From Intrasporangiaceae bacterium URHB0013 (lineage in GTDB: Bacteria; Actinomycetota; Actinomycetes; Actinomycetales; Dermatophilaceae): a DNA stretch of 64,000 nt. Below are positions 1,201-63,021 of the stretch, piece by piece. The stretch spans positions 62,001-126,000 of the forward strand of contig JIBA01000012.1 of NCBI GenBank assembly GCA_000620545.1, in the 5' to 3' direction. A model generated the notes under the pieces. That model was not told where the DNA came from. It was given only the letters and a program-made list of their open reading frames with translations, and did no database searches. The translations under genes were made by a program, and so were the position numbers. Numbering within the stretch: the stretch's first letter is position 1; each line of letters opens with the position of its first letter.

Positions 1201-2661
1201 ATGAGCAGCACCAGCACCGCCCCCACGAGCGCCCACCGCACCTCCACTGGCAGCCGGACGAGAGTCGTCATCCTCGGCGCAGCCGGCCGCGACTTCCACG
1301 ACTTCAACGTGGTCTTCCGCGACGACCCGACCCACGAGGTCATCGCCTTCACCGCGACGCAGATCCCTGACATCGCGGGTCGTCGGTACCCGCCGGAGCT
1401 GGCCGGAAGCTTGTATCTCGAAGGGATTCCGGTCGTCGCGGAGTCGGAGCTGACCGACCTCGTCGAGCGCGAGCACGTCGACGTCGTCGTCTTCGCCTAC
1501 TCCGACGTGCGGCACGAGCACGTCATGCACCTCGCGTCACGCTGCATCGCGGCGGGTGCGGACTTCCGCCTCCACGGTGCGCGGCACACGATGCTGCCCA
1601 GCACGAAGCCCGTCGTCGCGGTGACGGCCGTACGCACCGGGGTCGGAAAGAGCCAGACGTCGCGCTACCTCGCGCGCCTGCTCATCGACCTCGGCCTCCG
1701 CGCCGTGGCCATCCGGCATCCGATGCCCTACGGCGACGTGGCAGCCCAGGCGTGCCAACGCTTCGCGACCTACGCCGACCTCGACCTGCACGACTGCACG
1801 ATCGAGGAGCGGGAGGAGTACGAGCCGCACCTCGATGCCGGCGTCGTCGTGTACGCCGGCGTCGACTACGAGCGGATCCTGCGCCAGGCCGAGCAGGAGG
1901 CTGACGTCATCCTCTGGGACGGAGGCAACAACGACCTTCCCTTCTACGTGCCCGACCTGCATGTGGTGCTGGCCGACCCGCTCCGCGCGGGCGACGAGGC
2001 GACCTACCACCCGGGCGAGGCGAACGTCCGGATGGCCGACGTCGTCGTGGTCGCGAAGTGCGACTCGGCGCGTTCGGCCGACATCGAGGCCGTCGAGGCG
2101 TCGGTCCGCGCGCTCAACCCCCGTGCGACCCTGCTGCGCGCGGACAGTCCTGTGACGGTCGACGATTCGGCTGCCGTCCACGGGCGCCGCGTCATCGTCG
2201 TCGAGGACGGCCCGTCCCTGACGCACGGATCGTTGACCTACGGCGCCGGCGTCGTCGGCGCCCGCGCGGCCGGTGCGGCGCTCCTCGTCGACCCGACGCC
2301 GTATGCCGTCGGCTCGATCGCCGACACCTATGCGACGTACCCCAACGCACGGGGCGTCCTGCCGGCCATGGGCTACGGGGCCGACCAGGTGCGCGACCTC
2401 GAGGCGACGATCCGCGCAGCCGTCGACGCGGGGGAGTGCGACGCCGTCGTCAGCGGCACACCCATCGACCTCACCCGCATCCTGTCGATTCCGGCGCCCC
2501 TCGTGCGGGCCCGCTACGAGCTGCGCGAGGTCGTGCTCGGAGGTCTGGCGGCGGCCGTCCGGTCTGCCCTCCAGCTCGACGACATCGACGTCCAGCGTGC
2601 GCCCTCGGACGCACCATCCGACGCCCCCGCGGGCGCCACCCTCGCCGGGAGGGCGACATGA
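1201..2661 (+). CDS. Cyclic 2,3-diphosphoglycerate synthetase-like P-loop protein
   Basis: About 486 residues. An N-terminal Rossmann-like segment (RVVILGAAGRDFHDFN, residues ~22-37) is followed by a P-loop (RTGVGKSQ, K150) and a later WDGGNNDLPF motif. This matches the family annotated as cyclic 2,3-diphosphoglycerate synthetase in thermophilic archaea and as GTPase in bacteria. Its bacterial substrate is not known to me. I chose ATG 1201 because GGAG at 1191-1194 is correctly spaced; ATG 1195 in the same frame would sit on that ribosome site. It is divergent from the rocD-like gene, a neighbour that fits nitrogen or arginine metabolism only loosely. The 3' end overlaps a 28-codon ORF by ATGA. 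Confidence 0.8.
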   Translation: MSSTSTAPTSAHRTSTGSRTRVVILGAAGRDFHDFNVVFRDDPTHEVIAFTATQIPDIAGRRYPPELAGSLYLEGIPVVAESELTDLVEREHVDVVVFAYSDVRHEHVMHLASRCIAAGADFRLHGARHTMLPSTKPVVAVTAVRTGVGKSQTSRYLARLLIDLGLRAVAIRHPMPYGDVAAQACQRFATYADLDLHDCTIEEREEYEPHLDAGVVVYAGVDYERILRQAEQEADVILWDGGNNDLPFYVPDLHVVLADPLRAGDEATYHPGEANVRMADVVVVAKCDSARSADIEAVEASVRALNPRATLLRADSPVTVDDSAAVHGRRVIVVEDGPSLTHGSLTYGAGVVGARAAGAALLVDPTPYAVGSIADTYATYPNARGVLPAMGYGADQVRDLEATIRAAVDAGECDAVVSGTPIDLTRILSIPAPLVRARYELREVVLGGLAAAVRSALQLDDIDVQRAPSDAPSDAPAGATLAGRAT

Positions 2662-2744
2662 GCGCGCCGACCGAGCGCCGACCCTCCCACTCGCGAGACG
2701 AGGCCTTCGTGCGCCCCTTCCGTGGCATTTCTCCAAGGATGTGA
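2658..2744 (+). CDS. Possible 28-residue small protein
   Basis: An ATG at 2658 overlaps the stop of the preceding gene (ATGA) and is preceded by GGGAGGG at 2647-2653, an excellent ribosome site. The frame encodes 28 residues (begins MSAPTERRPS, ends FRGISPRM) and stops six bases before the next start at 2750. It has no recognisable domain. It may be a real small protein, a coupling peptide that passes ribosomes on to the DUF4389 gene, or the stub of a degraded gene. Confidence 0.35.
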   Translation: MSAPTERRPSHSRDEAFVRPFRGISPRM

Positions 2745-2749
2745 GTTCC

Positions 2750-4393
2750 ATGAGCACAGCAACCAACAACCCCGTCCACCCACCCCGCCCCGCCAACCAG
2801 CACCTGGCCGCCCTCATCATCGGGTGTCTGCTCATCCTGCCCGGCCTCGGCCTGCTCCTCGGCGGAGCAGGCCTCGGTGTCACGTATGCCGTGGGTCGGG
2901 ACGACGCGGGCTACCTGTCCCTGACGGTGCCGGCCCTGTCGAGCCCGTCGCCTGCGATCACGGTCGAGGACATCGTGGTCGAGACCGGCCCCGACGTGCC
3001 CTCGTGGGTGCTCGACCGCCTCGACCTCGACCTCCGACTGACCGCACGTCCCCTCGCATCGGGGCAGGACGTCTTCCTCGGCGTCGCGCCCGCGAGCAGC
3101 GTCACGTCCTACCTCGCCGGGGTGGCGCACGACCAGGTCGTCGGCGTCACGGGCGCCCGCAGCGGCACCTCGAGGACGGCTGTGCTCCGGTCGACGCCGG
3201 GCGCGGCGACCGCGGCCGCCCCGACGACCCAGACCTTCTGGACCGCGTCGGCCACCGGCGCCGGGCAGCAACAGCTGTCCTGGCGCCTGACCGGCGGCCA
3301 GTGGGCCGTCGTCATCATGAACGCCGACGGCAGCGCTGGCGTCGCCGTGTCGTCGATCATCGGTGTCCGAGCGGGCTTCCTCCTGCCGCTCGCCCTCGTC
3401 ATGATCGGCATCGGTCTCGTCCTGACCGGCCTCGCCATCGCGCTCATCATCCGTGGCGCCAGCGGCAGCCGGCCGTCGTCGACCCGGAACCCGCCGCTCA
3501 CGCCCGCACCCGTCGACCCCCTCGACCCCATCAACGGGGCGAACATGCCCATGACCTCACCGATGAGTCCACCCATGACGTCACCGATGTCGTCACCGAT
3601 GGCCGACCCGGCAGTCTCGAGTGCCCCGCTCTCCCGGCTGACACACCCACGAGCCGTGAGTCCCGTGGCCCTCAACGCCGACCTCGACGAGCCGCTCTCG
3701 CGGTGGCTGTGGTTGGTCAAGTGGTTCCTCGCCATCCCGCACGCCGTGGTGCTCGCCTTCCTGTGGGTGGCGTTCTCGGTGGTCAGCCTCGTCGCGTTCT
3801 TCGCGATCCTCTTCACGGGCCGCTATCCACGGGGGCTCTTCGAGTTCAACGTCGGCGTGCTGCGCTGGACGTGGCGCGTGGCCTACTACGCCGGTAGCGG
3901 CGGCCTCGGCACCGACCGCTACCCGCCCTTCAGTCTCGGCCTCGAGCCGGACTACCCGGCACGACTCGACATCGCCTACCCGGAGCGTCTCTCGCGCGGT
4001 CTGGTCCTCGTCAAGTGGTGGTTGCTGGCGATCCCGCAGTACCTCATCGTGGGCCTGCTCGTCGGCGGTGGCACCTGGGCCTGGTCGTGGGCGCGGGACG
4101 CCAACGGGGACGGTCGCATCGACGTGCTCAGTGGAGGCCTGCTCGGGCTGCTCGTCCTCGTCGCCGGCCTCTCGCTCCTCTTCGCCGGCCACTACCCACA
4201 GGCGCTCTTCGACCTCGTCGCCGGCCTCAACCGCTGGGTCTACCGGGTGATCGCGTACGTCGCCCTCATGACCGACGTCTACCCGCCGTTCCAGCTCGAC
4301 GAGGGTGGCTCGGAGGTGCCGCCCGGTCCGCCGACGGGCATGCCACAGATGCCCGATGACCGGGTCGACCCGGCGCCTCAACTCACGGGCTGA
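2750..4393 (+). CDS. DUF4389 membrane protein, two copies of the domain
   Basis: 547 residues. A TM segment near residues 23-47 leads to an extracytoplasmic region of about 170 residues, then a second TM segment (~208-235). A low-complexity linker rich in MTSPM/MSPPM repeats (~265-290) follows. The C-terminal half carries two DUF4389-type repeats, each starting with L(S)RWLWLVKWFLAIPH or LSRGLVLVKWWLLAIPQ (near 312 and 411) and ending with an F-x-x-N/AGLxRWxxRVxxY element and DxYPPF. Function is unknown; such proteins are common in actinobacterial membranes. ATG 2750 follows an AAGGA at ~2735-2739. Confidence 0.8.
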   Translation: MSTATNNPVHPPRPANQHLAALIIGCLLILPGLGLLLGGAGLGVTYAVGRDDAGYLSLTVPALSSPSPAITVEDIVVETGPDVPSWVLDRLDLDLRLTARPLASGQDVFLGVAPASSVTSYLAGVAHDQVVGVTGARSGTSRTAVLRSTPGAATAAAPTTQTFWTASATGAGQQQLSWRLTGGQWAVVIMNADGSAGVAVSSIIGVRAGFLLPLALVMIGIGLVLTGLAIALIIRGASGSRPSSTRNPPLTPAPVDPLDPINGANMPMTSPMSPPMTSPMSSPMADPAVSSAPLSRLTHPRAVSPVALNADLDEPLSRWLWLVKWFLAIPHAVVLAFLWVAFSVVSLVAFFAILFTGRYPRGLFEFNVGVLRWTWRVAYYAGSGGLGTDRYPPFSLGLEPDYPARLDIAYPERLSRGLVLVKWWLLAIPQYLIVGLLVGGGTWAWSWARDANGDGRIDVLSGGLLGLLVLVAGLSLLFAGHYPQALFDLVAGLNRWVYRVIAYVALMTDVYPPFQLDEGGSEVPPGPPTGMPQMPDDRVDPAPQLTG

Positions 4394-4394
4394 C

Positions 4395-4601: not shown

Positions 4602-4696
4602 GACAGGGCTCGCAGGCAGGTGCTCATGTGCAGACGCTACGTCGCCGAGCGCACCCCGTCACCCGTGCCGGGATCCGCAACGGCTGGCGTATGCCG

Positions 4697-4952: not shown

Positions 4953-4976
4953 AGTCGCGGCCGGCGCAACAGGACG

Positions 4977-5903
4977 TCAGGTCGTGGCCGGCAGGTGCGC
5001 GTCGAGCCAGTCGATGATCTCCACCTCGACCTCGTCGCGGTTCGTCTCGTTGAGGATCTCGTGGCGGGCCTCGGGCCACAGCGTCATGGTCACGTCCCGG
5101 ACTCCGAGCCGGCGCAGCTGGTCGGCGACGTGCCGCACGCCCTTGCCGTTCGCGCCGACCGGGTCCTTGTCACCGGACGCCAGGTGGACCGGCAGGTCCT
5201 CGGGGATGCGGGAGGCGACCCGGTCGGTGTTGACCGACTCCAGCCCACGCAGCAGGTCGGCGAACCCACCGGCGCTGAAGACGAATCCGCAGTCGGGGTC
5301 GTTGATGTACTTGTCGACCTCGGCGGGGTCCCTCGAGAGCCAGTCGAACTCGGTGCGTGTGGGCTTGAAGGCCGCGTTGTACTGCCCGAAGCTCAGCTTG
5401 TTCATCAGGCCGCTGGTGTGGGCGTGCCCACGGAGCCGCGCCTGAGTCGCGGCGAGGAAGATGCCGACCTTGCCCATCGCGCCGGCGCCGCCCGCGGTTC
5501 CCGAGAGCACGAGGCCGGCGAGCTCGGATCCGTGCTGGGCGGCATAACCCCGGGAGATGAACGACCCCATGCTGTGGCCGAGGAGGAAGACCGGCAAGCG
5601 GGGCTGCTCCTCGCGCGCACGCTCGGTCACGGCGTACAGGTCGTCGATGACCGTCTGCCAGCCGTCGCGCTCAGGGAAGGAGCCGCGGGGACTCGACGTC
5701 TTGCCGTGGCCCCGGTGGTCGGAGGCGTACACGGCATACCCACGGTCCGTGAGGCGCTGGGCGAAGTGGCCGTAACGGCTCGAGTGCTCGGCCAGGCCGT
5801 GTGCGATCTGCACGATCGCGCGGGGCGGCCCGTCGGGGAGCCAGCGGTTGACGAAGACCTCGGTGCCGTCGGGCGTAGTCAGCGTGAGGGTGCTGCTCTG
5901 CAT
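4977..5903 (-). CDS. Alpha/beta hydrolase, monoacylglycerol-lipase-like
   Basis: 308 residues of the lysophospholipase/monoacylglycerol lipase family (Hydrolase_4). The nucleophile serine S111 sits in GHSMG, the acid is D247 in SGDKDP and the histidine H281 in ARHEIL. The HGLAEHSSRYGHFAQRL and SDHRGHGKT motifs typical of the family are present. There is no signal peptide, so a cytosolic or membrane-associated lipase acting on monoacylglycerols or lysolipids is likely. The 64-bp hairpin array starts 25 bp beyond its stop codon. Confidence 0.85.
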   Translation of the reverse strand: MQSSTLTLTTPDGTEVFVNRWLPDGPPRAIVQIAHGLAEHSSRYGHFAQRLTDRGYAVYASDHRGHGKTSSPRGSFPERDGWQTVIDDLYAVTERAREEQPRLPVFLLGHSMGSFISRGYAAQHGSELAGLVLSGTAGGAGAMGKVGIFLAATQARLRGHAHTSGLMNKLSFGQYNAAFKPTRTEFDWLSRDPAEVDKYINDPDCGFVFSAGGFADLLRGLESVNTDRVASRIPEDLPVHLASGDKDPVGANGKGVRHVADQLRRLGVRDVTMTLWPEARHEILNETNRDEVEVEIIDWLDAHLPATT

Positions 5904-6182
5904 GGATCGTCCTCGATCTCGCTCGGTCGCGCCCGGTCCGGCTCGGTCTCGCTCTGGTTCAGGGGCACGTGGGTGGCCGTCGATCGGCAGCGTATGCCGT
6001 CGCGCGCCGTTCCCGGGCCAACCGCACCATCCACGCCCGTGGTGAGCCGGCGGTTCGCCCTGAGGTCGCGATCACCGTGGTTCCCGACCGGCGTACGGCC
6101 GTGGCGGGATGCGCCGTGGACACGCCGGTGCGACCCGTACGGAGTGGGTAGGGGCCCGGTGTTCCGACTCCAGGAGGCGACC

Positions 6183-9683: not shown

Positions 9684-10685
9684 TCACCGCCCTGCTCGGG
9701 TCTCCAGGATGACGACGTCGGTGTCCGTGTCCACGAGCCGGGCGGGCTCCAGACCGGCCGCGACGAACAGGGCGTCGAGCTCCGCCGCCGTGCGTTCGCG
9801 CCCACCGGGCAGCACCAGCATGTTGAGATCCGACATGGCCGAGTCCAGCTCGTGGCCCGGCCGGTCGAGCACCAGCTCCACGACGAGCACCACCCCGCCC
9901 GGTGCGAGGGACCGACGGCACGTGCGCAGGATCTCGACGCATCTCTCGTCGGACCAGTCGTGCAGGACCTTCTTGAGCAGGTAGGCGTCGGCTGCCGGGA
10001 CGTGCTCGAAGAAGTTGCCCGCCACGACCGACCACCGGGATGCCACCGAGTCACTGGCCGTCGACGGCGGTCCGGCGGGCACTGCCTGTGGCAGGTCGAA
10101 CACCGTCCCGCGGAGGTGCTCGTTCCGGGCCAGGACGGCCTCGAGCAGCAGCCCGTGGCCGCCGCCGACGTCCGCGACCGTCTCCAACCCCGAGAAGTCG
10201 TAGGCACCGGCCACGGCGGCCGCCACTCTCGTCGTCAGGGCCGTCATGTTGTCGTTGAAGATCGCGCCCGCCTCAGCATGGGCGGCCCGATAGGTCCAGA
10301 CGTCCACGCCGTGCAGGGCCTCGAACGCGGTGTCGCCCGTGCGCACGCTGTGGGTCAGGTGCCCCCAGGCTGCCCATGTCGCCGGGTCCTGGAGCATGCG
10401 CGCCAGCGGCCGGAGTGACCCGGCCGCGTCGGTGCGCAACCCGTCGCCGAGCGGCGTCCCGGCGTAGAGGCCCTCGGTCGACACGGCATACACACCCAGT
10501 GCGACGAGAACCCGCATGAGCCGGCCCAGCGTGTCCTCGTCGGCGCCCACCCGGCTGGCCAGCTGGGCCAGCGTCAGTGGCCCGGAGGCGAGCTCGTCGC
10601 TAATCCCGAGCTCGGCGGCCGTGCTGATGGCGGCCGAGGTCCGGAACGCGGTGACCAGTGACCTGAGGTCCGGCGTGACGTCCAT
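9684..10685 (-). CDS. SAM-dependent O-methyltransferase (class I, plant-type/CrtF-like)
   Basis: 333 residues. An N-terminal dimerisation/winged-helix domain (STAAELGISDELASGPLTLAQLASRVGADEDTLGRLMR) is followed by the SAM site DVGGGHG (~172-178) and the KKVLHDWSDE motif, whose histidine acts as base in hydroxyneurosporene and small-molecule O-methyltransferases. The substrate is presumably a phenolic or hydroxylated secondary metabolite. It lies about 3.7 kb from the type III PKS cluster but is separated from it by ligD, so a shared pathway is only a possibility. A GGAGGA site precedes the ATG. Confidence 0.85.
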   Translation of the reverse strand: MDVTPDLRSLVTAFRTSAAISTAAELGISDELASGPLTLAQLASRVGADEDTLGRLMRVLVALGVYAVSTEGLYAGTPLGDGLRTDAAGSLRPLARMLQDPATWAAWGHLTHSVRTGDTAFEALHGVDVWTYRAAHAEAGAIFNDNMTALTTRVAAAVAGAYDFSGLETVADVGGGHGLLLEAVLARNEHLRGTVFDLPQAVPAGPPSTASDSVASRWSVVAGNFFEHVPAADAYLLKKVLHDWSDERCVEILRTCRRSLAPGGVVLVVELVLDRPGHELDSAMSDLNMLVLPGGRERTAAELDALFVAAGLEPARLVDTDTDVVILETRAGR

Positions 10686-13448: not shown

Positions 13449-14255
13449 TCAGCTGCGCGCCACGATGCTGACGACGTTGACGAGCGCGATGAGCACCGCC
13501 GCGACGAACGGCAGGCGCCCCCGTGCCAGGACGGCGACGACCGCGAGGACCACGCACGCCGCGAGCAGTCCCAGCCCGGTGCCGTCCAGCCCGGGGCCGT
13601 ATGCCGCCACGACCGACCCCGCGAGCAGCACTGCGGGTGCCAGCCACCGGACCACCGGCTCCCCGAGCCGGTGCGGCAGGCCTCGCACGCCGGTGGCTTC
13701 GTCGTCCGCGAGGTCGGGAAGGACGTTGAGCAGGTGGGCGCCCACTCCGAGCAGCGCGCCCGCGACGAGCACCCAGGCGGGCGGCCAGACGGGTGTCGGG
13801 AGGGCGAGCGTGACGACGGCAGGCAGCGCACCGAAGGCGACGGCATACGGCAGCGGGGAGAGCACGGTCCGCTTGAACCAGAGGTTGTAGGCCCAGCCGG
13901 ACGCAACACCGAGGACCAGGTGCACGAGTCCCGAGGCCCATCCGCACGCGAGCGACAGCACGACGCACGCGCCGACCGCGGCTCCGCAGGCGGCGCGGAC
14001 GACCGGCTCCGCCACGTCGCCGGCGGCCAGGGGTTTGTCGGTGCGCCCGACGGCGCGGTCGCGGCGAGCGTCGACGAGATCGTTGCACCAGCCGATGGAG
14101 AGCTGTCCGGTGAGCACTGCTGCTGTCACGAGCAGCCCTCGCCCCAGGGTGAGCCCGGCCGACCATGCGAGCAGCGCGGTGAACACGCTGACCGCGAGCG
14201 TCGGCCCGGGATGGCAGGCGAGCGCCAGTCCCCGCACCGTCCGAGCGACCGCCAC
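13449..14255 (-). CDS. UbiA-family prenyltransferase
   Basis: About 268 residues and eight or more TM segments. The first aspartate-rich motif is NDLVDARRD (N58) and the second is the DLADDEATGVRGLP loop, both used to bind prenyl diphosphate through Mg2+. I chose GTG 14255 rather than upstream ATG 14360 because the extra 35 residues are hydrophilic and would cover the divergent promoter, and because TAGGCT lies 7 nt before the GTG. It is back to back with the type III PKS, with an IPP isomerase at the far end of that operon. This suggests prenylation of the PKS product or of a related quinone ring. A UbiA chlorophyll/menaquinone-like function is the alternative. Confidence 0.85.
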   Translation of the reverse strand: MAVARTVRGLALACHPGPTLAVSVFTALLAWSAGLTLGRGLLVTAAVLTGQLSIGWCNDLVDARRDRAVGRTDKPLAAGDVAEPVVRAACGAAVGACVVLSLACGWASGLVHLVLGVASGWAYNLWFKRTVLSPLPYAVAFGALPAVVTLALPTPVWPPAWVLVAGALLGVGAHLLNVLPDLADDEATGVRGLPHRLGEPVVRWLAPAVLLAGSVVAAYGPGLDGTGLGLLAACVVLAVVAVLARGRLPFVAAVLIALVNVVSIVARS

Positions 14256-15508: not shown

Positions 15509-16060
15509 GTGACCTCCACGTGGCTCTTCACTGGCCTCGTCGCGCTCGTCGGGCTCGAGCGCCTGGCCGAGCTCGTCGTCTCGAAACGGCATGCAGCGTG
15601 GGCCTTCTCGCGCGGCGGCGTGGAGCGGGGTCAGTCGCACTACCCGGTCATGGTGGTGCTCCACACGGGCCTGCTCGTCGGCGCCGTCGCGGAGGTGTGG
15701 CTCGCCGACCGCCCGTTCGTCCCGGTGCTCGGTTGGGTCATGCTCGCCCTCGTCGTCGCCAGCCAGGCGCTGCGCTGGTGGTGCATCGCGACGCTCGGCA
15801 ACCAGTGGAACACTCGCGTCATCGTCGTCCCCGGCCTCGCGCTCGTCCGGCGCGGCCCCTACCGCCTCCTCCCGCACCCCAACTACGTCGCCGTCGTCGT
15901 CGAGGGCTTCGCCCTGCCGCTCGTGCACACGGCGTGGGTCACGGCGCTCGTCTTCACCGTGGCCAACGCCGCCCTGCTCACTGTCCGCATCCGGGCCGAG
16001 AACGCCGCCCTGCGCGAGATCGCCTCGCCGGCCAGCGCCCCCAGCGGAGCAGCCACGTGA
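15509..16060 (+). CDS. Isoprenylcysteine carboxyl methyltransferase-like membrane methyltransferase (SrsB-like)
   Basis: 183 residues with four or five TM segments. The C-terminal signature (LRWWCIATLGNQWNTRVIVV, RRGPYRLLPHPNYVAVVVEG) is the SAM-binding half of ICMT-type enzymes. In the S. griseus srs operon the homologous gene methylates the alkylresorcinol ring, which fits its position directly after the PKS. GTG 15509 is preceded by AAGGAG at 15496-15501. The stop overlaps the next start as GTGA. Methylation of an actual isoprenylated protein is unlikely in a bacterium. Confidence 0.85.
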   Translation: MTSTWLFTGLVALVGLERLAELVVSKRHAAWAFSRGGVERGQSHYPVMVVLHTGLLVGAVAEVWLADRPFVPVLGWVMLALVVASQALRWWCIATLGNQWNTRVIVVPGLALVRRGPYRLLPHPNYVAVVVEGFALPLVHTAWVTALVFTVANAALLTVRIRAENAALREIASPASAPSGAAT

Positions 16061-20344: not shown

Positions 20345-21055
20345 TCAGGTGACGGGAAGCCTCTCGCGGAGGAACTCGGTCGTCGTCGCCCACGCAAGGG
20401 TGGCGGAGGCCGGGTCGTGCCACGGCATGTCGTCGTTGTCGAACGCGTGGTCGGCGCCGGCATACGTCTCGAAGACGGTGGCCGGCTGCTCGGTGAGGGA
20501 GGCCTCGATGCGACGCACCGTCTCGGTGTCGATGAACGAGTCGGCGAGGCCGAAGTGGTGCAGGCTCGGGGCGGTCACGGTCATGACGTCGTGCAGCCCC
20601 GGCAGGGCCGAGCCGTAGTAGCTGACGAGCGCGTCGAGCGGCGCCGAGCCGTCGGACTCCAGGTGCGCGGCGACGTTGAAGCCGAGTCCGCCGCCGAAGC
20701 AGAAACCGACGGCCCCGACACCACCGGTGACCTCGTCACGGTCGCGGAGCCACTCGACCGTCGCCGCGGCGTCCGTCACGGTGGCCTGCCAGTCGAGGCG
20801 CTGGACGAGGCCCATCCCCTGCTGCAGCGCGTCGTCGCCCTCGACGGGCGAGGTGACGCCGAGGCGCCAGAAGATCTCGGGCGCCACGACGACGTAGCCG
20901 TGCTCCGCGAGCTGGGCCGCACGACGCTGGATGTAGTCGCTGACACCGAAGATCTCCTGCAGCACGACGATCCCGGGGCCGTGTCCCGACGGCGGGAGCC
21001 AGAGGTGCGCGGGCATCTCGCCGGCGTCGGTCGTGATGGTCACGTGCTCGCTCAT
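20345..21055 (-). CDS. Dienelactone hydrolase family protein
   Basis: 236 residues with the DLH layout: E34 in VVLQEIFGV, nucleophile C119 in GFCFGGG, acid D172 and H203 in AGADHAF. The Cys-His-Asp triad plus the switching glutamate is typical of carboxymethylenebutenolidase. It may hydrolyse dienelactone from chlorocatechol-type pathways or other small esters. No aromatic-degradation genes adjoin it except a BenE-like transporter 12 kb away. ATG 21055 is next to a TGACGTCA palindrome. Confidence 0.85.
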   Translation of the reverse strand: MSEHVTITTDAGEMPAHLWLPPSGHGPGIVVLQEIFGVSDYIQRRAAQLAEHGYVVVAPEIFWRLGVTSPVEGDDALQQGMGLVQRLDWQATVTDAAATVEWLRDRDEVTGGVGAVGFCFGGGLGFNVAAHLESDGSAPLDALVSYYGSALPGLHDVMTVTAPSLHHFGLADSFIDTETVRRIEASLTEQPATVFETYAGADHAFDNDDMPWHDPASATLAWATTTEFLRERLPVT

Positions 21056-21171
21056 GACGTCAGTATGTCGAGACGGCCGGGACGGTGGCTGGCGCCAGCG
21101 TGTCCCGGCCGTCACGACCGATCGCGTATGCCGTGTGCCCGGGCGGGTGCCCGAGGGCCGCCCCCAGCGGG

Positions 21172-25945: not shown

Positions 25946-25984
25946 GCCGTATGCCGTCGAGGAGGTCTCTCGGCGGCATACGGC
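25946..25984. terminator. Hairpin made of an inverted GTATGCCG pair between convergent genes
   Basis: GCCGTATGCCG (25946-25956) and CGGCATACGGC (25974-25984) are perfect complements across 17 nt, exactly in the gap between the two convergent stop codons. Both arms are copies of the over-represented octamer. Confidence 0.65.
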
Positions 25985-50147: not shown

Positions 50148-51974
50148 GTGCGCCCCGAGCTTCGCACCACCGAGGACGGTGTCGCGTACCGCGACCTCAA
50201 CGGCAACGGCCGGATGGACCCGTACGAGGACGCCCGGCTGCCCGTCGAGGAGCGCGTCCGTGACCTGGTCGGCCGCCTCTCCCTCGAGGAGAAGGTCGGC
50301 CTGATGTTCCAGACGGTCATCGAGGCGGGCGCCGACGGCTCGGTGCTCGAGCACCCGGGTGCCATCAGCAAGTCGCCGACGAGCACCGTCGTGCTCGAGA
50401 AGCACCTCAGCCACTTCAACGTGCACGCGCTCGACGACCCGCGCATGGCAGCCCGGTGGAGCAACGCCCTGCAGGCGCTCGCCGAACGCACGCCACACGG
50501 CATACCCGTGACGATCTCAACCGACCCCCGGCACGCGTTCATCGAGAACGTCGGGGTCTCCTTCTCCGCCGGTGCGTTCTCCCAGTGGCCCGAGCCGCTC
50601 GGCCTCGCGGCGCTGCGTGACGCGGACGCCGTGCGGCGCTTCGCCGACATCGCCCGGCAGGAGTATGTGGCCGTCGGCATCCGCGCGGCTCTGCACCCGA
50701 CGCTCGACCTCGCGACCGAACCGCGCTGGGCTCGCCAGGCCGGCACCTTCGGCCAGGATCCCGACCTCGTGACGGAGCTCGGTGTCGCCTATCTCAAGGG
50801 CTTCCAAGGCGATTCGATCGGGCCGGGCAGCGTGGCGTGCACGAGCAAGCACTTCCCGGGCGGCGGTCCGCAGAAGGACGGGGAGGACGCCCACTTCCCG
50901 TACGGTCGCGAGCAGGTCTATCCCGGTGGGCGGTTCGCCGACCACCTCAAGCCCTTCCCGCCGGTCATCGAGGCCGGCACCGCGGGCATCATGCCGTACT
51001 ACGGGATGCCGGTCGACCTCGTCGTCGACGGCGTCCCGATCGAGCCGGTCGGCTTCGGCTACAACAAGCAGCTCGTCGCCGGGCTGCTGCGCGGGAAGCT
51101 CGGCTACGACGGCGTCGTCGTCACCGACTGGGAGCTCGTCAACGACAACCACGTCGGCGACCAGGTGCTGCCCGCCCGCGCGTGGGGCGTCGAGCACCTC
51201 GACCCGCACGGACGCATGGAGCTGATCCTCGAGGCCGGTGCCGACCAGTTCGGCGGCGAGGAGTGTGTCGACATCCTTCTCGACCTCGTCGCGCAGGGGC
51301 GGGTCACCGAGGCGCGCGTCGACGAGTCGGCACGTCGGATCCTCGCGGTGAAGTTCCGCCTCGGTCTGTTCGACGACCCGTACGTCGACGAGGAGGCGGC
51401 GGCCGTGACGGTGGGGCGGGCCGACTTCCGCGAGGAGGGGTATGCCGCGCAGGCCCGATCAGTGACGGTGCTGCACAACGAGGATGGCCGGCTGCCGCTC
51501 GAGCAGGGCCTGCGGATCTACGCCGAACGGGTCTCACCCGAGGCGGTCATCCGGCACGGCAAGCTCGTCGAGCGACCGGAGGACGCCGACGTCGCCGTCG
51601 TGCGCCTGACCGCGCCCTTCGAGCCGCGCTCGGATCTCTTCCTCGAGTCGTGGTTCCACCAGGGTTCGCTCGACTTCCCGCCCGGCCTCATCGCCCGGCT
51701 CGAGCGCATCGCGGCCGCGTGCCCGCTCGTCATCGACGTCGTGCTCGACCGACCCGCCGTCGTGACGCCGCTGCTCCGGTTCGCCTCGGCGGTCGTCGGC
51801 ACGTACGGCAGCAGCGACGACGCCCTGCTCGACGCCATCACCGGCACGATCCCTCCTGCCGGCCGCCTGCCGTTCGACCTGCCGCGGTCGATGGACCAGG
51901 TGCGCGCCCACGGCGAGGACGTGCCGGGCTACGACGACCCGCTCTACCGCTTCGGAGACGGCCTCACGATCTGA
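50148..51974 (+). CDS. Glycoside hydrolase family 3 (beta-glucosidase-like)
   Basis: 608 residues. GH3 N-terminal TIM barrel with LSLEEKVGLMFQ, ACTSKHFPGGGPQKDGEDAHFPYG and nucleophile D327 in VVVTDWELVND. The shorter C-terminal alpha/beta sandwich runs from EGYAAQARSVTVLHNEDG to the end; no fibronectin or PA14 domain. It has no signal peptide, so it acts in the cytosol on oligosaccharides brought in by the neighbouring ABC transporter. GTG 50148 follows GAAAGG. ILE codon ATA at 50502 is forced by a GTATGCCG copy. Confidence 0.9.
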   Translation: MRPELRTTEDGVAYRDLNGNGRMDPYEDARLPVEERVRDLVGRLSLEEKVGLMFQTVIEAGADGSVLEHPGAISKSPTSTVVLEKHLSHFNVHALDDPRMAARWSNALQALAERTPHGIPVTISTDPRHAFIENVGVSFSAGAFSQWPEPLGLAALRDADAVRRFADIARQEYVAVGIRAALHPTLDLATEPRWARQAGTFGQDPDLVTELGVAYLKGFQGDSIGPGSVACTSKHFPGGGPQKDGEDAHFPYGREQVYPGGRFADHLKPFPPVIEAGTAGIMPYYGMPVDLVVDGVPIEPVGFGYNKQLVAGLLRGKLGYDGVVVTDWELVNDNHVGDQVLPARAWGVEHLDPHGRMELILEAGADQFGGEECVDILLDLVAQGRVTEARVDESARRILAVKFRLGLFDDPYVDEEAAAVTVGRADFREEGYAAQARSVTVLHNEDGRLPLEQGLRIYAERVSPEAVIRHGKLVERPEDADVAVVRLTAPFEPRSDLFLESWFHQGSLDFPPGLIARLERIAAACPLVIDVVLDRPAVVTPLLRFASAVVGTYGSSDDALLDAITGTIPPAGRLPFDLPRSMDQVRAHGEDVPGYDDPLYRFGDGLTI

Positions 51975-52393: not shown

Positions 52394-52399
52394 TAGCAT
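52394..52399 (+). promoter_or_regulatory. Leaderless -10 box of the hydrolase gene
   Basis: TAGCAT, then 7 nt, then GTG 52407; it also decides between that GTG and ATG 52398. Confidence 0.5.
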
Positions 52400-52406
52400 G
52401 TGGACA

Positions 52407-53096
52407 GTGACCACATTCGCGCTCCTCCCCGGCGCCGGCGGCGCCGCCGCCTGGTACTGGCACCGCGTCGTGCCGCTGCTCGAGTCGGCACGCCACGAGG
52501 CGGTCGCCGTCGACCTGCCGGCCGACGACGCGGACGCCGGGCTGCCGGAGTATGCCGCCCTCGTCGAGTCCGCGGTCGCCGGCCGTGACGACGTGGTGGT
52601 CGTGGCCCAGTCGATGGGCGGGTTCACCGCGCCGATGGTCGCGGCGCGGCGCCCCGTCTCGGGCATCGTCCTGCTCAACGCGATGGTCCCGCTGCCGGGC
52701 GAGACGGCCGGCGCGTGGTGGGACGCCGTGGGGTCGGAGGACGCGCGCCTGGCCGCCGCCCGCGCCGGGGGCTACCCGACCGAGATGGACCTCGACACCT
52801 ACTTCCTGCACGATCTGGACCCTGACGTGGCAGCCAGCGGTGAGCAGCACCAGCGGCAGGAGGTCGACCGCGCCTTCGAGACACCCTGCGACATCGAGCG
52901 CTGGCCCGACGTCCCGACCCGTGTCGTGGCCGGTGCCGGTGACCGCTTCTTCCCGCTGGCGCTGCAGCGCCGAGTGGCCCGTGATCGCCTCGGCCTCGAC
53001 GTCGACACCGTCCCCGGTGGGCACCTCGCCGCGCTGTCGCATCCGGCCGAGCTCACCGCATACCTGCTCGCCGAGGGACACGGCTCGACCGGCTGA
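52407..53096 (+). CDS. Alpha/beta hydrolase (salicylate-esterase/MES-like)
   Basis: 229 residues: TTFALLPGAGGAAAWYWHRVVPLLESARHEAVAVDLPADD at the N-terminus, nucleophile in VVVAQSMGGFTAPMVA, and HLAALSHPAELTAYLL with the catalytic His near the end. The opening matches plant methyl-esterase/hydroxynitrile-lyase-type hydrolases. The nucleophile elbow reads A-Q-S-M-G rather than G-H-S-M-G. Substrate unknown. Confidence 0.82.
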   Translation: MTTFALLPGAGGAAAWYWHRVVPLLESARHEAVAVDLPADDADAGLPEYAALVESAVAGRDDVVVVAQSMGGFTAPMVAARRPVSGIVLLNAMVPLPGETAGAWWDAVGSEDARLAAARAGGYPTEMDLDTYFLHDLDPDVAASGEQHQRQEVDRAFETPCDIERWPDVPTRVVAGAGDRFFPLALQRRVARDRLGLDVDTVPGGHLAALSHPAELTAYLLAEGHGSTG

Positions 53097-56162: not shown

Positions 56163-57005
56163 ATGTGCCCCGCCGACCTGCCCAACCCGGCGCAGCATCC
56201 CGTCACGGGCGGGCTCTTCCTGTCGCCGGTCCCCGCCGGCTCCGGTTGGCCGGGTGACCCCGCGACAGCAGAGACGCCCGTGGCCACCACCCCCGCACAG
56301 GTGCGTCGCCTCGCGAAGGGGGCGGACGGCATACGCGAGCTCGATGCCCGTGTCAGCGTGTGCCGCGCGTGCCCGCGACTCGTCGAGTGGCGCGAATCCG
56401 TTGCCACCCAAGGACGTCGGGCGGCCTTTGCGGACCAACCGTACTGGGGACGGCCCGGGCCCTCGTTCGGCGACCCGCAGGCCGAGGTGCTCGTCGTCGG
56501 GCTCGCTCCCGCGGCCAACGGCACCAACCGCACCGGCCGGATGTTCACCGGTGATCGCTCCGGCGACTGGTTGTATGCCGCCCTCCACCGGGGTGGGTAC
56601 GCGAGCCAGCCGACGTCGGTGGCCTCCGGCGACGGGCTCGTGCTGACCGGACTCCGCATCGTCGCGACCGTGCGGTGCGCGCCACCCGCGAACAAGCCGA
56701 CGACCGAGGAGAAGGCGACGTGCGCCCCGTGGCTCGACCGGGACCTCGAGCTCTCGGAGCCGCGCCTCCGGTCCGTGCTGGCGCTCGGCGGCATCGCGTG
56801 GGACGCGGCGCTCGGTGCCGCCCGACGTCGGGGATGGAGCGTGCCGAGGCCGAGACCGAGGTTCGGTCACGGAACCGAGGCGGTGCTGACCACCGACACC
56901 GGCCGGCACGTGCGCCTCGTCGGCAGCTATCACGTGAGCCAGCAGAACACCTTCACCGGCAAGCTCACCGAGGCGATGCTCGACCAGGTCGTCGCCCGGC
57001 TGTGA
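56163..57005 (+). CDS. Family 5 uracil-DNA glycosylase (UDGb), Fe-S
   Basis: 280 residues. Four cysteines fit a [4Fe-4S] cluster: C67 and C70 in VCRAC, C172 in [15 protein letters not shown]187 in ATCAPW. The active-site motif is [19 protein letters not shown] (113-131) and the second motif is [14 protein letters not shown], where most homologues have HPSQ. It removes uracil and other deaminated bases from DNA. The leaderless ATG follows TAGCGT by 6 nt. Rare ATA codon near 56331 is within a GTATGCCG copy. Confidence 0.9.
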
Positions 57006-57389: not shown

Positions 57390-57397
57390 GTCCGCGT

Positions 57398-57403: not shown

Positions 57404-57410
57404 GGATGCC

Positions 57411-58116: not shown

Positions 58117-59106
58117 TCACTCGACTCGCGCGTCGTCCTGCACGTCGTCCGGCGCCGAGGACCGACCAGGCCCACGTGGAAGTGCTGTCCGCTCCCACGT
58201 GGGCCCGTCGGTCGCGGGGCCCTGCGGCGTCCACCACAGGGGGTCGATGCGCATCTGCCGGGCAGTGACGGCTTCGTTCCACGCGTGGTACACGACGACG
58301 TCGCCCCACTCGGGCGTGGCGATCAGCGAGTTGTGACCGGGTCCGATGACGTGTCCGGGCACCGACTGGAGCACCCTGCGGGCCTCGTCGACCTCTGACC
58401 AGGGACCGAGGGGGTGGTCACTGACGGCGCAGCCCACGGCATACGTCGGCTGCTGCCACGAGCCGGCGGAGTAGAAGCACCAGTAGCGGCCCTCACGGAA
58501 GACGACGAAGGGCCCCTCCAGGGTGTGCCAGTCGATGACCCGGCCGTAGCGCTCCCGCTGCCGCTCGTAGATCTGCCAGTCCGCGCTCGCCAGGAGCACG
58601 TCGACGGGCTCACCCAGACGGGTCGTCGAGAGCAGCGGCGCCACCGCCAGCATCGTGCCGATCCGCTCGCCCTCGAGCACGTCGCGCGCGTAGAAGAGGA
58701 AGAGCTCGCCGTCGGCCGACCGGAACGGGTTCGGGTCGATCGCGAAGCCCTCGTGTGGGGTGAGGTTGACCCCCTGGTCGACATAGGGACCCTCGGGGTC
58801 GTCGGCCAGGGCGACGCGCAGGTGGTGGTCGAGGTCGCCCTGGCCCGCCGAGTAGTACATCGCCCAGCGGCCGTCGATCTCGATGACCTCCGGCGCCCAG
58901 AAGTCCGTGCCCACCCCCTCCGGACGTACCAGGGCGCCGCCGATCCGGGACCACGAGACGAGGTCGGTGGAGGTCAGCACCGGGAAGACCGGGCCCTCGG
59001 GCGCGTTGTCCGTGCCGAAGGCGAGGTAACGGTCGCCGACCCGCATGACGAACGGGTCGGCGAAGTAGTCGTCGTGGACGGGGTTGCAGTAGGGCACCTC
59101 AGCCAT
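58117..59106 (-). CDS. Glycoside hydrolase family 43 (intracellular)
   Basis: 329 residues, five-bladed propeller. The catalytic acids are D17 in YFADPFV, a central Asp in GFAIDPNPF and the Glu in HTLEGPFVVFREGRYW. It lacks a signal peptide, so it hydrolyses arabinose- or xylose-containing oligosaccharides in the cytosol. It is back to back with a secreted GH43, 137 bp apart. CATGTCACG occurs twice at its start (59104-59112 and 59115-59123), possibly an operator. Confidence 0.88.
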   Translation of the reverse strand: MAEVPYCNPVHDDYFADPFVMRVGDRYLAFGTDNAPEGPVFPVLTSTDLVSWSRIGGALVRPEGVGTDFWAPEVIEIDGRWAMYYSAGQGDLDHHLRVALADDPEGPYVDQGVNLTPHEGFAIDPNPFRSADGELFLFYARDVLEGERIGTMLAVAPLLSTTRLGEPVDVLLASADWQIYERQRERYGRVIDWHTLEGPFVVFREGRYWCFYSAGSWQQPTYAVGCAVSDHPLGPWSEVDEARRVLQSVPGHVIGPGHNSLIATPEWGDVVVYHAWNEAVTARQMRIDPLWWTPQGPATDGPTWERTALPRGPGRSSAPDDVQDDARVE

Positions 59107-59243: not shown

Positions 59244-61583
59244 ATGCCACGACGTCCGACCGGCTGGGCCTTCGTCCTTGCGCCCCTGAGTGCGCTGGCC
59301 CTGGCGGTGACTCCCCTCGCAACGAGCACGTCGGCGCAGGCGACGGCCCCGAGCCGCAGCGGGACCGGGTCGGGCACCGCCTACTCGAACCCGGTCAGCA
59401 GGCCGTTCGCCGACACCTTCGCAGACCCCTCGGTCATCCGCGGCAAGGACGGCTGGTGGTACGCCTACGGCACGAGCGACCCCCTCCGGGAGGGCGAGGG
59501 CACGGCCCACCGCATCCCCGTCGCCCGATCGGCGGACCTCGTGCACTGGTCGTACGTCGGCGATGCGTTCAGCACGGCGACGGTGCCCACGTGGGCCGCG
59601 CCGGACGCCGCCCTCTGGGCGCCGGACATCCGTTACGTCGATGGGCAGTATCGGCTGTACTACGTCGTCACGCAGACGACCGTCACACCGGGACCCAACG
59701 ACAACGCCATCGGCATGGCGACCGCCCCGACGCCGGCCGGTCCGTGGACCGACAGCGGCGCGCCCGTCGTGGGCCCGCGCCCGGGAGCCAGCGGCAACGC
59801 CGACGACTTCCTGTGGACCTTCGACCCGTCGGCCGTGACCGACGTCGACGGCAGCCAGTGGCTCTTCTACGGTTCGTACTACGGCGGAATCCACGTCGCC
59901 CCGCTGTCCCAGGACGGCCGCACCGTCACGGGCCCGTCTCGCATGGTCGCGATCGACAACAAGTTCGAGGGTGCCTACGTCGTGCGGCACGGCGGCTACT
60001 GGTACCTCTTCGCCTCGACCGCCAACTGCTGCGCAGGCCCCACCACCGGCTACAGCGTGCAGGTGGGCCGGTCCCGCGACCTGCGCGGCCCGTACGTCGA
60101 CCGGGAGGGCGTGGCCCTCACTGCCTCGCGGGCGGGCGGGACGCCGTCGCTCACCCAGAACGGCAACCAGTGGGTGGGCGCCGGTCACAATGCCGTCGCC
60201 ACCGACCTCGCCGGTCAGGACTGGAACGTCTACCACGCGATCGACCGCTTCGACCCCTACCTCGACGGCACGGACGGCATCAACGAGCGACCGATGCTGC
60301 TCGACCGCCTCGACTGGGTGGACGAATGGCCCGTCACGCGAGCCGGACTCGGTCCCAGCAGCGGCACCCAGCCGGGACCCGTCGCCGCAGGCCGCCTCGT
60401 CACGACGTTCGACGACCGGGGCACGGCCTGGGCGCGCACCGGCTCGTGGACCGAGCGCAGCGACGCGCAGTCGGGCCGCTTCCTGGGCTCCGGGTCGGCC
60501 GGCACGGTGCTGACGCGCGCGGCCGTGCCCGGTGACATCCGCATCGAGGCAGACCTCCGCTCGTCCGCCGCACCCCACGGCCTGGTCGTACGCCGGGACG
60601 CCCAGTCCCAGGTGCGCCTCACCATCGACCCGGCGGCGCGCACGGCTCGGCTGGCCCTCGTCGTCGACGGTGTCACCCGACGTGCGACGACCGCCACGCT
60701 CCCGGCGACCTACGACCCTGTCGACTGGCACTCCGTGAGCCTCGAGGTGCGAGACGGGCGCGCGCACGCGCAGGTCACCCACGCCCGGCTCCACGACCCG
60801 TTGGCCGATCTCACGCTGGCCGTGCCGGGCCGCCGCGGTGCGGCGCCCACCCACGCCGGCGCGTGGGCCGGCGGCGCAGGCGTCGGTGTCGACAACCTCA
60901 GTGCCACGCGCGCGGCGGACCTCGTCGACGCGCTCGCCCCTCTGCCGGTACCGAACCGGCTGGACCGCGACGCCAGCGACGAGTTCACCGGTGGCTCACT
61001 CGGATCCGGCTGGAGCTGGGTGCGGCAGGACGATGCGGCGACGGTCCGCGGCGGCGCCCTCGTGTGGCCGGTCGAGCGGGCCGACCTGACGGGCCCGACG
61101 AACGACGCCGGGGTGCTCCTGCGCAACCTGCCCGCGTCCACGACCGACAGCCGGCCATGGACGGCCGAGACGAAGGTGACCCTCGACGTCGGCACCGACG
61201 TGGTGCGCAACTTCCAGCAGGCGGGCCTCATCGTCTACGTCGACGACGACCTCTTCACCCGCCTGTCGCACGTGGCCATCTGGAACACGCGCCAGACCGA
61301 GTTCGGCAAGGAGATGCCGTATGCCGGCCGGCTCTCCTACGGGGGCACGATCATCGGGCCTCCGGCCGAGACGACCTGGTTGCGCATCACGCACCACGTG
61401 GACGGGACGACGGGCGAGCACCGCCTCCGCGGCTGGACCAGCCGCGACGGCCGCACCTGGGTTGCCGGGGGCGTGTGGACCCTCCCGGCCGGCGCGCACC
61501 TTCGCGTGGGCCTCGTCTCCCACGGCTCGCAAAGCGGCCCGGCGGCCACGTCGACCTTCGACTACCTACGGATCTTCCGATGA
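59244..61583 (+). CDS. Secreted GH43 (arabinanase-like) with C-terminal beta-sandwich domains
   Basis: 779 residues. A Sec signal (GWAFVLAPLSALALAVTPLA) is cut near SAQA. The GH43 propeller (~45-400) has acids in TFADPSVIRGK, WTFDPSAVTDVDGSQWLFYGSYYGG and KFEGAYVVRHGGYWYLFAS, the pattern of endo-1,5-alpha-L-arabinanases. It is followed by a LamG-like middle domain (~400-580) and a beta-xylosidase C-terminal type domain (DEFTGGSLGSGWSWV to FDYLRIFR, ~600-779). ATG 59244 has GAAGGG upstream. It probably breaks polymer outside the cell for the ABC importer encoded next. Confidence 0.9.
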   Translation: MPRRPTGWAFVLAPLSALALAVTPLATSTSAQATAPSRSGTGSGTAYSNPVSRPFADTFADPSVIRGKDGWWYAYGTSDPLREGEGTAHRIPVARSADLVHWSYVGDAFSTATVPTWAAPDAALWAPDIRYVDGQYRLYYVVTQTTVTPGPNDNAIGMATAPTPAGPWTDSGAPVVGPRPGASGNADDFLWTFDPSAVTDVDGSQWLFYGSYYGGIHVAPLSQDGRTVTGPSRMVAIDNKFEGAYVVRHGGYWYLFASTANCCAGPTTGYSVQVGRSRDLRGPYVDREGVALTASRAGGTPSLTQNGNQWVGAGHNAVATDLAGQDWNVYHAIDRFDPYLDGTDGINERPMLLDRLDWVDEWPVTRAGLGPSSGTQPGPVAAGRLVTTFDDRGTAWARTGSWTERSDAQSGRFLGSGSAGTVLTRAAVPGDIRIEADLRSSAAPHGLVVRRDAQSQVRLTIDPAARTARLALVVDGVTRRATTATLPATYDPVDWHSVSLEVRDGRAHAQVTHARLHDPLADLTLAVPGRRGAAPTHAGAWAGGAGVGVDNLSATRAADLVDALAPLPVPNRLDRDASDEFTGGSLGSGWSWVRQDDAATVRGGALVWPVERADLTGPTNDAGVLLRNLPASTTDSRPWTAETKVTLDVGTDVVRNFQQAGLIVYVDDDLFTRLSHVAIWNTRQTEFGKEMPYAGRLSYGGTIIGPPAETTWLRITHHVDGTTGEHRLRGWTSRDGRTWVAGGVWTLPAGAHLRVGLVSHGSQSGPAATSTFDYLRIFR

Positions 61584-61671
61584 CCACGCCGGGCGGACAC
61601 CCCGCCGACGCAACCCAGGACCCACCGCACCCGGACCGGTCCCAGCACCTCTCGACACACAGGAGCACATC

Positions 61672-63021
61672 ATGAACGAGCCCATCCTCTCCAGCGGGGT
61701 CTCACGACGAGCCTTCTTGGGCCTCAGCGGCGGCGCCGCTGCCGGGCTCGCCCTGGCCGCCTGTGGCGGCGGCAAGTCGGCCTCCGACGCCGCGGGCGGG
61801 GCAGGCGCCGCGCCCACCACGAGCTTCAGCGGTACGTACTCCGGCCCCGCGGTCACGTTGTCGTACTGGAACGGCTTCACCGGCGGAGACGGGCCCTTCA
61901 TGACAAAGATGGTGCAGGAGTTCATGAAGGAGAACCCCAACATCACCATCAAGGCCAACACCGTCCAGTGGGCGCAGTACTACCAGCGGATGCCCGCCGC
62001 CGTGACGGCTGGCAAGGGACCCGACGTCGGCGTCATGCACCTCGACCAGCTGGCCACGAACGCCGCGCGCAAGGTCATCGTCCCCGTCGACGACGTCGCC
62101 AAGGCCATCGGGCTCGAGGAGTCTGACTTCACCAAGCAGGTCTGGGAGGCGGGGATCTACCAGAACGCCCGCTACGGCATACCGCTCGACGTCCACTCGC
62201 TCGCGATGTTCTACAACACGGACGATATGAAGAAGGCCGGCCTCGACAAGCCCCCGACGGACGCGGCGAGCTACATGGCCGCCCTCGACAAGTTCAAGGC
62301 GGCCGGCATGGACCAGCCGTTCTGGATGCCGACCAGGTGGCCCGACCACCTGATGTTCCTGTCGCTGCTGTGGCAGAACGGCGGCGAGCCCTACTCGGCC
62401 GACGGCACCAAGGCCACCTTCGACTCCGACGCCGGCATCAAGGCGCTGACCTGGATGGCCGACATCGTCAACAAGGGCTACAGCCCGAAGAACCTAGGCC
62501 CGGACACGGAGTACGTCGCGTTCAAGAACAAGAAGTACCCGCTCCACTGGAACGGCATCTGGCAGATCAACGACCTCAAGAGCTCCGGGGTGCCGTTTGC
62601 GCTGGCTCCGATCCCGCAGATCGGCGACCGGCCTGCGGCGTGGGCGAACTCGCACAACTTCTACGTGACCCGGCAGGCCACCCAGGACGACAACAAGCTC
62701 CAGGCGTCCAAGGTCTTCATCGACTGGATCAGCAAGAAGTCGGCCGAGTGGGCCGGTGCCGGCATGGTGCCGGCGCGCAAGTCCGTCCGCGAGACCGAGG
62801 CGGTCAAGAACAGCATCCAGGGGCCCATCGCCGAGCAGATCGACAACCTGCACTTCCTCCCGCCGATCCCCGGTGTCGGCGACGTGCAGGCCCAGACGCT
62901 GGAGATCGCCGTGTCGGACGGCATCACCGGCAAGCGCCCGCCCGCCCAGGCCCTCAAGGAAGAGGCGGCCAAGGCATCGCAGCTCATGGAGGCCAACAAG
63001 AAGAAGTTCGGGGCATCCTGA
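61672..63021 (+). CDS. Sugar ABC transporter substrate-binding Tat lipoprotein
   Basis: 449 residues. SRRAFLGLSGGAAAGLALAAC combines a twin-arginine motif (R12-R13) with a lipobox Cys at 31. The mature part is a cluster-B binding protein: VTLSYWNGFTGGDGPFMTKMVQEFMKENPNITIKANT, GKGPDVGVMHLDQLATNAA, YGIPLDVHSLAMFYNTDDMKKAGLD. Codon 170 is a rare ATA in a GTATGCCG copy. The ligand is likely an arabino- or xylo-oligosaccharide. AGGAG precedes ATG 61672. Confidence 0.92.
   Translation: MNEPILSSGVSRRAFLGLSGGAAAGLALAACGGGKSASDAAGGAGAAPTTSFSGTYSGPAVTLSYWNGFTGGDGPFMTKMVQEFMKENPNITIKANTVQWAQYYQRMPAAVTAGKGPDVGVMHLDQLATNAARKVIVPVDDVAKAIGLEESDFTKQVWEAGIYQNARYGIPLDVHSLAMFYNTDDMKKAGLDKPPTDAASYMAALDKFKAAGMDQPFWMPTRWPDHLMFLSLLWQNGGEPYSADGTKATFDSDAGIKALTWMADIVNKGYSPKNLGPDTEYVAFKNKKYPLHWNGIWQINDLKSSGVPFALAPIPQIGDRPAAWANSHNFYVTRQATQDDNKLQASKVFIDWISKKSAEWAGAGMVPARKSVRETEAVKNSIQGPIAEQIDNLHFLPPIPGVGDVQAQTLEIAVSDGITGKRPPAQALKEEAAKASQLMEANKKKFGAS

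Follow-up and report, generated by a model that had tools for sequence, protein, structure and literature searches.

The 64,000-nucleotide stretch analysed here (the window) comes from Intrasporangiaceae bacterium URHB0013, a member of the Dermatophilaceae, and carries many copies of the octamer GTATGCCG, which a preliminary description of the same DNA had singled out as over-represented. The 33 exact copies reported there, 17 on the plus and 16 on the minus strand, were recovered together with each coordinate named; 100 dinucleotide shuffles of the window gave a mean of 1.05 copies (maximum 4), and an order-3 Markov model of the window expects 1.64. The word had been described as usually extended, and T is indeed the next base after 21 of the 33 copies. 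Called genes, which come from a home-made, unvalidated caller, hold 27 copies, 20 of them in sense and 7 in antisense orientation. Copies were said to sit in all reading frames; they do occupy multiple frames (five of six), but the sixth is empty and there is a strong skew to one, G-TAT-GCC-G, which reads Tyr-Ala and accounts for 17 of the 27.

Tyr-Ala copies on the plus strand lie at 2301-2308 (gene 1195-2661), 2884-2891 (gene 2750-4393), 16113-16120 (FAD-binding gene 16057-17169), 24584-24591 (gene 24318-24959), 25791-25798 (gene 25060-25914), 35024-35031 (gene 34578-35999), 51440-51447 (GH3 gene 50148-51974), 52550-52557 (gene 52398-53096), 56573-56580 (UDG-family open reading frame 56163-57005) and 61319-61326 (GH43 gene 59307-61583). 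Their minus-strand counterparts are found at 5732-5739 (gene 4977-5903), 10484-10491 (gene 9684-10685), 13841-13848 (gene 13449-14186), 20458-20465 (gene 20345-21055), 26954-26961 (gene 26592-27623), 38270-38277 (gene 36954-38495) and 58437-58444 (GH43 gene 58117-59106). The Met-Pro frame is used on the minus strand at 40433-40440, within a DinB-like (IMS family) gene (39566-40585), and at 42257-42264 (gene 41786-42703). Antisense copies stand at 13599-13606 (plus; gene 13449-14186), 23132-23139 (minus; histidine-kinase gene 23083-24330) and 39629-39636 (plus; the same DinB-like gene). The preliminary description had also held that the word forces the codon ATA in four genes. This was seen in the called frames for three antisense copies on the minus strand, at 16641-16648 (the FAD-binding gene), 50498-50505 (the GH3 gene) and 62175-62182 (solute-binding-protein gene 61672-63021); for the fourth, at 56327-56334 (minus, antisense to the UDG-family reading frame, whose gene the caller starts later), frame arithmetic on the reading frame agrees. 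Outside called genes, single plus-strand copies lie at 4689-4696, 5992-5999 and 21126-21133. Both of the inverted pairs described earlier are present: one outside called genes, with its left arm at 25949-25956 (plus) and its right arm at 25974-25981 (minus), and one within an inositol-phosphatase-family gene (31641-32441), with its left arm at 32389-32396 (minus, antisense) and its right arm at 32403-32410 (plus, sense, Val-Cys frame).

Abundance, codon use and conservation

Over the whole genome (4,567,713 bases, 17 contigs) GTATGCCG occurs 1,988 times, 977 times forward and 1,011 times in reverse, which amounts to 435 copies per Mb or one per 2.3 kb. The word read backwards occurs 248 times (113 + 135), so that GTATGCCG is about eightfold more abundant than this control, which is possibly itself raised by bases favoured upstream of GTATGCCG. 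We applied codon-aware nulls to 464 kb of the genome (the window and 20 further stretches; 10%), which contain 206 copies. Synonymous-codon shuffling (100 rounds) gave on average 6.4 sense copies in genes (maximum 13) and 3.9 antisense copies (maximum 11), against 107 and 49 observed. Of 156 in-gene copies, 95 are in the Tyr-Ala frame. Within the context G-TAx-GCC-G, TAT outnumbers TAC by 95 to 30, whereas the tyrosine codons as a whole comprise 253 TAT and 2,301 TAC; 95 of 251 TAT and 14 of 31 ATA codons fall inside the word. Density is higher outside called genes, where 16% of the sequence holds 50 of the 206 copies. Under a second null, in which codon junctions are preserved as well, GTATGCCG ranked first among words in this genome (z 45), in a set made up of Knoellia and Janibacter HTCC2649 (z 30) and in Humibacillus xanthopallidus (z 16); genome G027, in which no genes were called, was left out of this null. 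Depending on the null, the excess is 13- to 48-fold. Neither of the outcomes that the preliminary description had named as refuting was thus obtained: the over-representation proposed for the window extends genome-wide, and codon or dipeptide bias leaves it unexplained.

Single copies are also conserved. Of 72 GTATGCCG copies aligned across eight disjoint genome pairs, 57 were identical in the partner, compared with 4,700 of 12,932 (36%) other 8-mers (p about 2e-13; the four Terrabacter pairs overlap partly in sites, and the p values are therefore optimistic). Where the amino acid was unchanged in these pairs, TAT was kept at 16 of 20 sites inside the word but at 7 of 28 outside, GCA at 13 of 17 but at 23 of 152, and ATA at 5 of 5 but at 0 of 3. 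Exact retention over all pairs, again relative to ordinary 8-mers, was 74% versus 41% in Terrabacter, 83% versus 25% in Knoellia and 90% versus 52% in H. xanthopallidus. The codon nulls and the retention of rare codons inside the word strongly support the earlier proposal that the DNA word is kept, and not a peptide.

The spacing of copies is no more regular than random (coefficient of variation 0.88 versus 0.98, 95% range 0.86-1.12). Gaps shorter than 60 bp number 11 against 5.2 simulated; since single simulations reach 14, this excess is only suggestive. Orientation is inverted in 7 of the 11 short gaps, and 5 of the 7 are convergent. The flanks of copies are diverse in this genome, and we found no longer shared element of the kind formed by repetitive extragenic palindromes (REP/REPIN type) around them. 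Genome G023 (genus g16, loci L135-L138) is the exception: most of its copies lie within a longer motif, approximately CGTATGCCGCTGRGCTSG, with about 12 further common bases and some palindromic pairs. At locus L190, 10906-11075, four GTATGCCG copies stand at an exact 54-bp spacing in an imperfect tandem array.

Distribution and related words in the Dermatophilaceae

Within this family of soil bacteria, 108 of 186 genomes, from 31 of 53 genera, exceed 100 GTATGCCG copies per Mb (densities were computed with rounded genome sizes), and the densest, G201, reaches about 1,356 per Mb. A phylum sample of 396 genomes included 392 from outside the family, none of which exceeded 100 per Mb; the highest density among them is that of G478, at 161 copies in 1.8 Mb. 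The same was examined at named loci. The best named matches of the window's DinB-like protein come from Terracoccus sp., Terrabacter and Humibacillus, followed by Knoellia and others, which marks the organism as Terrabacter-like, and NCBI taxonomy places Terrabacter within the Intrasporangiaceae. All six named Terrabacter loci hold 9-12 copies in 15-21 kb, and the six Knoellia loci hold 15-25 in 21 kb and 6 in 8 kb. Other dense loci are two of H. xanthopallidus (14 and 15 copies) and those of Terracoccus (11), Janibacter sp. HTCC2649 (19) and an Intrasporangiaceae metagenome-assembled genome (MAG; 22), and a further Dermatophilaceae MAG locus has 4 in 11 kb. Sparse loci are those of Intrasporangium flavum (0), a Humibacillus MAG (0) and Humibacillus sp. 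DSM 29435 (1); named loci outside the family have 0-3 copies each. In Paractinoplanes (loci L041, L047, L052, L054 and L056), which is outside the family, another word, CGTACGGG, occurs 40 times against 10.4 under the codon null.

Abundance can differ sharply within a genus. G065 has 37 copies where four genus mates have 1,251-1,660, G126 has 19 where its mates have 1,062 and 3,681, and G150 has 50 where 30 mates have 394-1,901. Twenty-five relatives, of which 20 are word-poor, were sampled (80 kb each) for de novo word counts; another word stood out in 8 of these 20, and none did in the samples of the other 12. Three related words were counted genome-wide in all 186 family genomes. GGATGCCG, one base away from GTATGCCG, occurs 3,949 times in G034, 3,816 and 3,838 times in G024 and G071, 4,480 and 3,619 times in G082 and G083, and 2,195 and 2,099 times in G084 and G085, against 241-1,336 times in the remaining family genomes. 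GTACGCCG, also one base away from GTATGCCG, reaches 4,185 and 3,903 copies in G129 and G130 and 2,111-2,618 in G128, G031, G059, G060 and G069; intermediate genomes include G126 (1,463), G032 (1,359), G068 (1,125) and G183 (1,011), and the GTATGCCG-rich genomes G146, G147 and G148 (genus g69) have as few as 58, 46 and 33. CGATGCGG, two bases away from GGATGCCG, has 2,007 copies in G125 and at most 1,110 in other family genomes. G084 and G085 have 1,217 and 1,189 copies of GTATGCCG beside their GGATGCCG, and look as if they were between dialects.

The related words exceed a codon null computed by frame, and do so in several reading frames. For GGATGCCG the counts were 46 versus 7.0 in G034, with 34 further copies in 9.9 kb outside genes, and 28 versus 6.0 in two Humibacillus loci; for CGATGCGG, 65 versus 15.6 in G125; and for GTACGCCG, 55 versus 14.3 in G031, 47 versus 11.6 in G059 and 37 versus 10.7 in G130. 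In nine control tests the ratio to the null lay between 0 and 2.0. CGAAGGGG, which resembles the other words less, occurs 56 versus 9.2 and 42 versus 8.3 times in genus g67 (L167-L174) and, more weakly, 25 versus 7.2 times in g63 (L079-L082); with a following G it is over-represented outside genes too in both genera. It may represent an additional dialect or have nothing to do with the other words. A3, G5 and G8 are common to all five words, the case for a shared core being weakest for CGAAGGGG. The top words of three out-group sets reach z 6-10 under the junction-keeping null, so that z alone cannot carry the weaker dialects, which stand on genome-wide counts and frames. In the genome of the window, near-miss forms of GTATGCCG are in excess over a word-masked Markov null at positions 1, 2, 4, 7 and 8 and not at 3, 5 and 6, approximately the positions that vary between dialects; as the codon null removes the excess at 2 and 4, this match is suggestive only.

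In a tree of ComEC with 41 rows, 18 carry the label GTATGCCG; these require 6 changes, and 126 of 500 label shuffles equal that, so that the tree shows only the scatter of the word over the family. Its labels are imperfect in places: G082 was entered as GTATGCCG though dominated by GGATGCCG, G126 and G032 as having no word though GTACGCCG is raised in them, and G113 is a fragment. The scatter reflects either an old origin with losses or several gains.

Possible functions of the word

The preliminary description offered three options: an uptake-like signal, a methylation target or a nucleoid-protein site. We find that the first fits best, that a methylation role is possible and that a nucleoid-protein site is less likely. 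Specifically, we infer that GTATGCCG probably serves a Gram-positive family as a DNA-uptake (kin-recognition) word with dialects, comparable to the DNA uptake sequences (DUS) of Neisseriaceae. Several features favour this reading: balanced strands, scatter over genes and intergenic DNA, inverted pairs, dialects, a foreign island free of the word, and the ComEA/ComEC/Tad gene set. A receptor in the competence machinery, either ComEA or a Tad/Flp minor pilin, would prefer word-bearing DNA. Imported kin alleles with the word would then replace alleles that had lost it, allowing copies to spread and persist, and a shift in receptor specificity would slowly rewrite a genome to a new dialect.

The genes for such a route are widespread: among the 186 family genomes, ComEC was found in 180, TadE in 181 and ComEA in 179, of which 97 pass its curated cut-off, and the type IVa pilus gene PilM_2 in 7. 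In the genome studied here ComEA adjoins ComEC, and a TadE-bearing locus has neighbours that, read by eye, are a Tad ATPase and membrane proteins. The passages available on transformation in Micrococcus luteus name the same set, comEA, comEC and tad genes (PMC4322843, PMC6370729). We also considered gene presence as the cause of the word's distribution and rejected it, as genomes rich and poor in the word are not told apart by ComEC, ComEA and TadE, and hardly any genome has PilM_2. The island lies on the window's own contig (contig 10, on which the window starts at 62 kb): from about 18.1 to 41.4 kb, 23 kb are without GTATGCCG, against a mean gap of 2 kb. With a G+C content of about 0.62, the island encodes DruE- and DruM-like (Druantia-like) and GmrSD-like proteins and helicase fragments (L191 1-20000, that is, contig 10 at 20-40 kb). 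Lack of the word, low G+C and defence genes together lead us to read this stretch as recently acquired defence DNA. A search for plasmid and phage matches, made with one 25-kb stretch of the window each, yielded a single match to plasmids, 48 bases long, and none to phages.

Several observations weigh against the uptake reading. The word's distribution does not follow that of ComEC, ComEA and TadE, which are equally common in word-poor genomes. The evidence from foreign DNA comes from a single island. Forms with one mismatch show hardly any enrichment (1.00 times the codon null, 0.93 times a mononucleotide null and 1.52 times the word-masked Markov null), while the available part of a study of the Pasteurellaceae uptake 10-mer gives over-representations of 145 at no mismatch and 10 at one (PMC1939737). 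G066 appears locally strand-biased, with copies divided 1 versus 13 at 0.5 and 1.2 Mb, 7 versus 8 at 2.0 Mb and 5 versus 1 at 2.8 Mb. Swaps between dialects at homologous sites are few, 5 of 22 distinct sites (in three homologous places), all synonymous, and in genus g71 lost copies have mostly decayed rather than switched. Finally, no report of natural transformation in the family was among the literature matches listed. A larger figure of 38 swaps among 72 pairwise instances was discarded as evidence of dialect switching; it collapses to the same 5 of 22 sites, two of which are ATA changing to the usual ATC.

The main rival is a methyltransferase coupled to mismatch repair that creates and keeps the word, a cause also put forward for the highly iterated palindromes (HIP) of cyanobacteria. 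HIP words are likewise over-represented octamers, which some related species have lost or exchanged for alternates; cognate methyltransferases are present, and a repair model has been suggested (PMC4390886). The near-lack of a one-mismatch excess would suit a precise enzyme. Unlike the HIP words described there, palindromes for which the methyltransferases are known, GTATGCCG is asymmetric and not its own reverse complement. Possible C-to-T precursors are not depleted in this genome, GTACGCCG occurring 52 times against 26.7 expected and GCATGCCG 53 against 40.1, a point qualified by GTACGCCG in genes falling below the codon null (45 versus 62.4) and by its scarcity (33-58 copies) in G146-G148. 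Moreover, some dialect differences are transversions, and repair should eventually mark foreign DNA, whereas the 23-kb island is unmarked, though perhaps recent. We consider this explanation unlikely.

Somewhat less likely still is a chromosome-wide binding site for a nucleoid-associated, chromosome-organising protein. Genome-wide scatter over both strands and the strict conservation of single copies would be expected of such a site. Against it, G065, G126 and G150 manage without an abundant word inside word-rich genera, the 23-kb island is resident without it, and the copies are spaced no more regularly than random.

An asymmetric, over-represented octamer in coding DNA also brings to mind guide words such as Chi, read by RecBCD, or the FtsK-orienting polar sequences (KOPS). 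The sequence of Chi differs between species. With the E. coli Chi word, GCTGGTGG, our word shares length, asymmetry and over-representation, which is 5.7 for Chi in the available part of PMC1939737. It differs in its 13- to 48-fold excess, in having no pooled polarity and in the failure to detect RecC. Relative to the GC skew of each locus, pooled copies are divided 315 versus 316, without heterogeneity over 55 loci (p 0.95); as these loci have only a weak skew, the verdict on polarity relies on the test for heterogeneity. RecC was undetected in this genome, in 8 of 9 genomes of its genus and in 24 of 33 scanned family genomes, many of them word-rich, a scan that bears on RecBCD-type Chi and not on sites of AdnAB/AddAB-type nucleases. 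A guide word of this kind is therefore very improbable. A codon-pair, dipeptide or compositional artefact, which the dominance of a single dipeptide, Tyr-Ala, might suggest, is refuted here by codon shuffles falling far short of the observed counts, by the excess among antisense, Met-Pro and intergenic copies and by rare codons being conserved only inside the word.

Comparison with known uptake words

The literature passages available name uptake words in Neisseriaceae and Pasteurellaceae (PMC3630211, PMC1939737). The DUS of Neisseriaceae form dialects with a common core, two of which are given with 2,426 and 5,918 copies, and inverted repeats are tabulated (PMC3630211, in the part available). 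The word studied here resembles them in being short and non-palindromic, in its thousands of copies and in having lineage-specific spellings with a shared core, including two related words one base away from GTATGCCG. It differs in length (8 bp; the DUS are 10-mers), in its high-G+C Gram-positive hosts and in its small one-mismatch excess. The gene sets differ too, PilM_2 being confined to 7 of the 186 genomes and TadE near-universal, and uptake and receptor are putative here. The uptake signal sequences of Pasteurellaceae, as far as covered in PMC1939737, share with GTATGCCG the genome-wide over-representation of a word (9-10 bp there), but show a steeper one-mismatch gradient, another core sequence and other hosts. 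A further comparison is with M. luteus, whose Tad/Flp-dependent transformation involves ComEA and ComEC; these genes and a Tad/Flp-type locus are present here as well. The passages on its transformation describe no uptake word, and the term 'uptake sequence' does not occur in that paper (PMC4322843); transformation of the organism studied here is putative. Among the literature matches listed, with preprints outside the scope, none reported GTATGCCG or uptake words in the family.

A fuller account would be that the Dermatophilaceae possess a dialect-forming uptake word of their own, independent of those of Neisseriaceae and Pasteurellaceae and read by a Tad/Flp-type competence system, whose specificity has switched several times, with some genomes (G084 and G085) caught mid-switch. 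We regard the case for and against this account as evenly balanced. If it is true, an independent Gram-positive example would mean that self-preferring DNA uptake evolves repeatedly, the dialect switches would be natural replicates for finding the receptor, and natural transformation would be indicated in a family for which the matches listed held no report of it. Whatever the cause, a family with thousands of letter-perfect words, spelled differently in different lineages, requires a mechanistic explanation, and one that is directly testable.

Two further words stand out in the window and are unexplained: relative to the order-3 Markov model, GTCACTGA occurs 10 times against 0.8 expected, and the hexamer AGTCCG occurs 53 times against 20.7.

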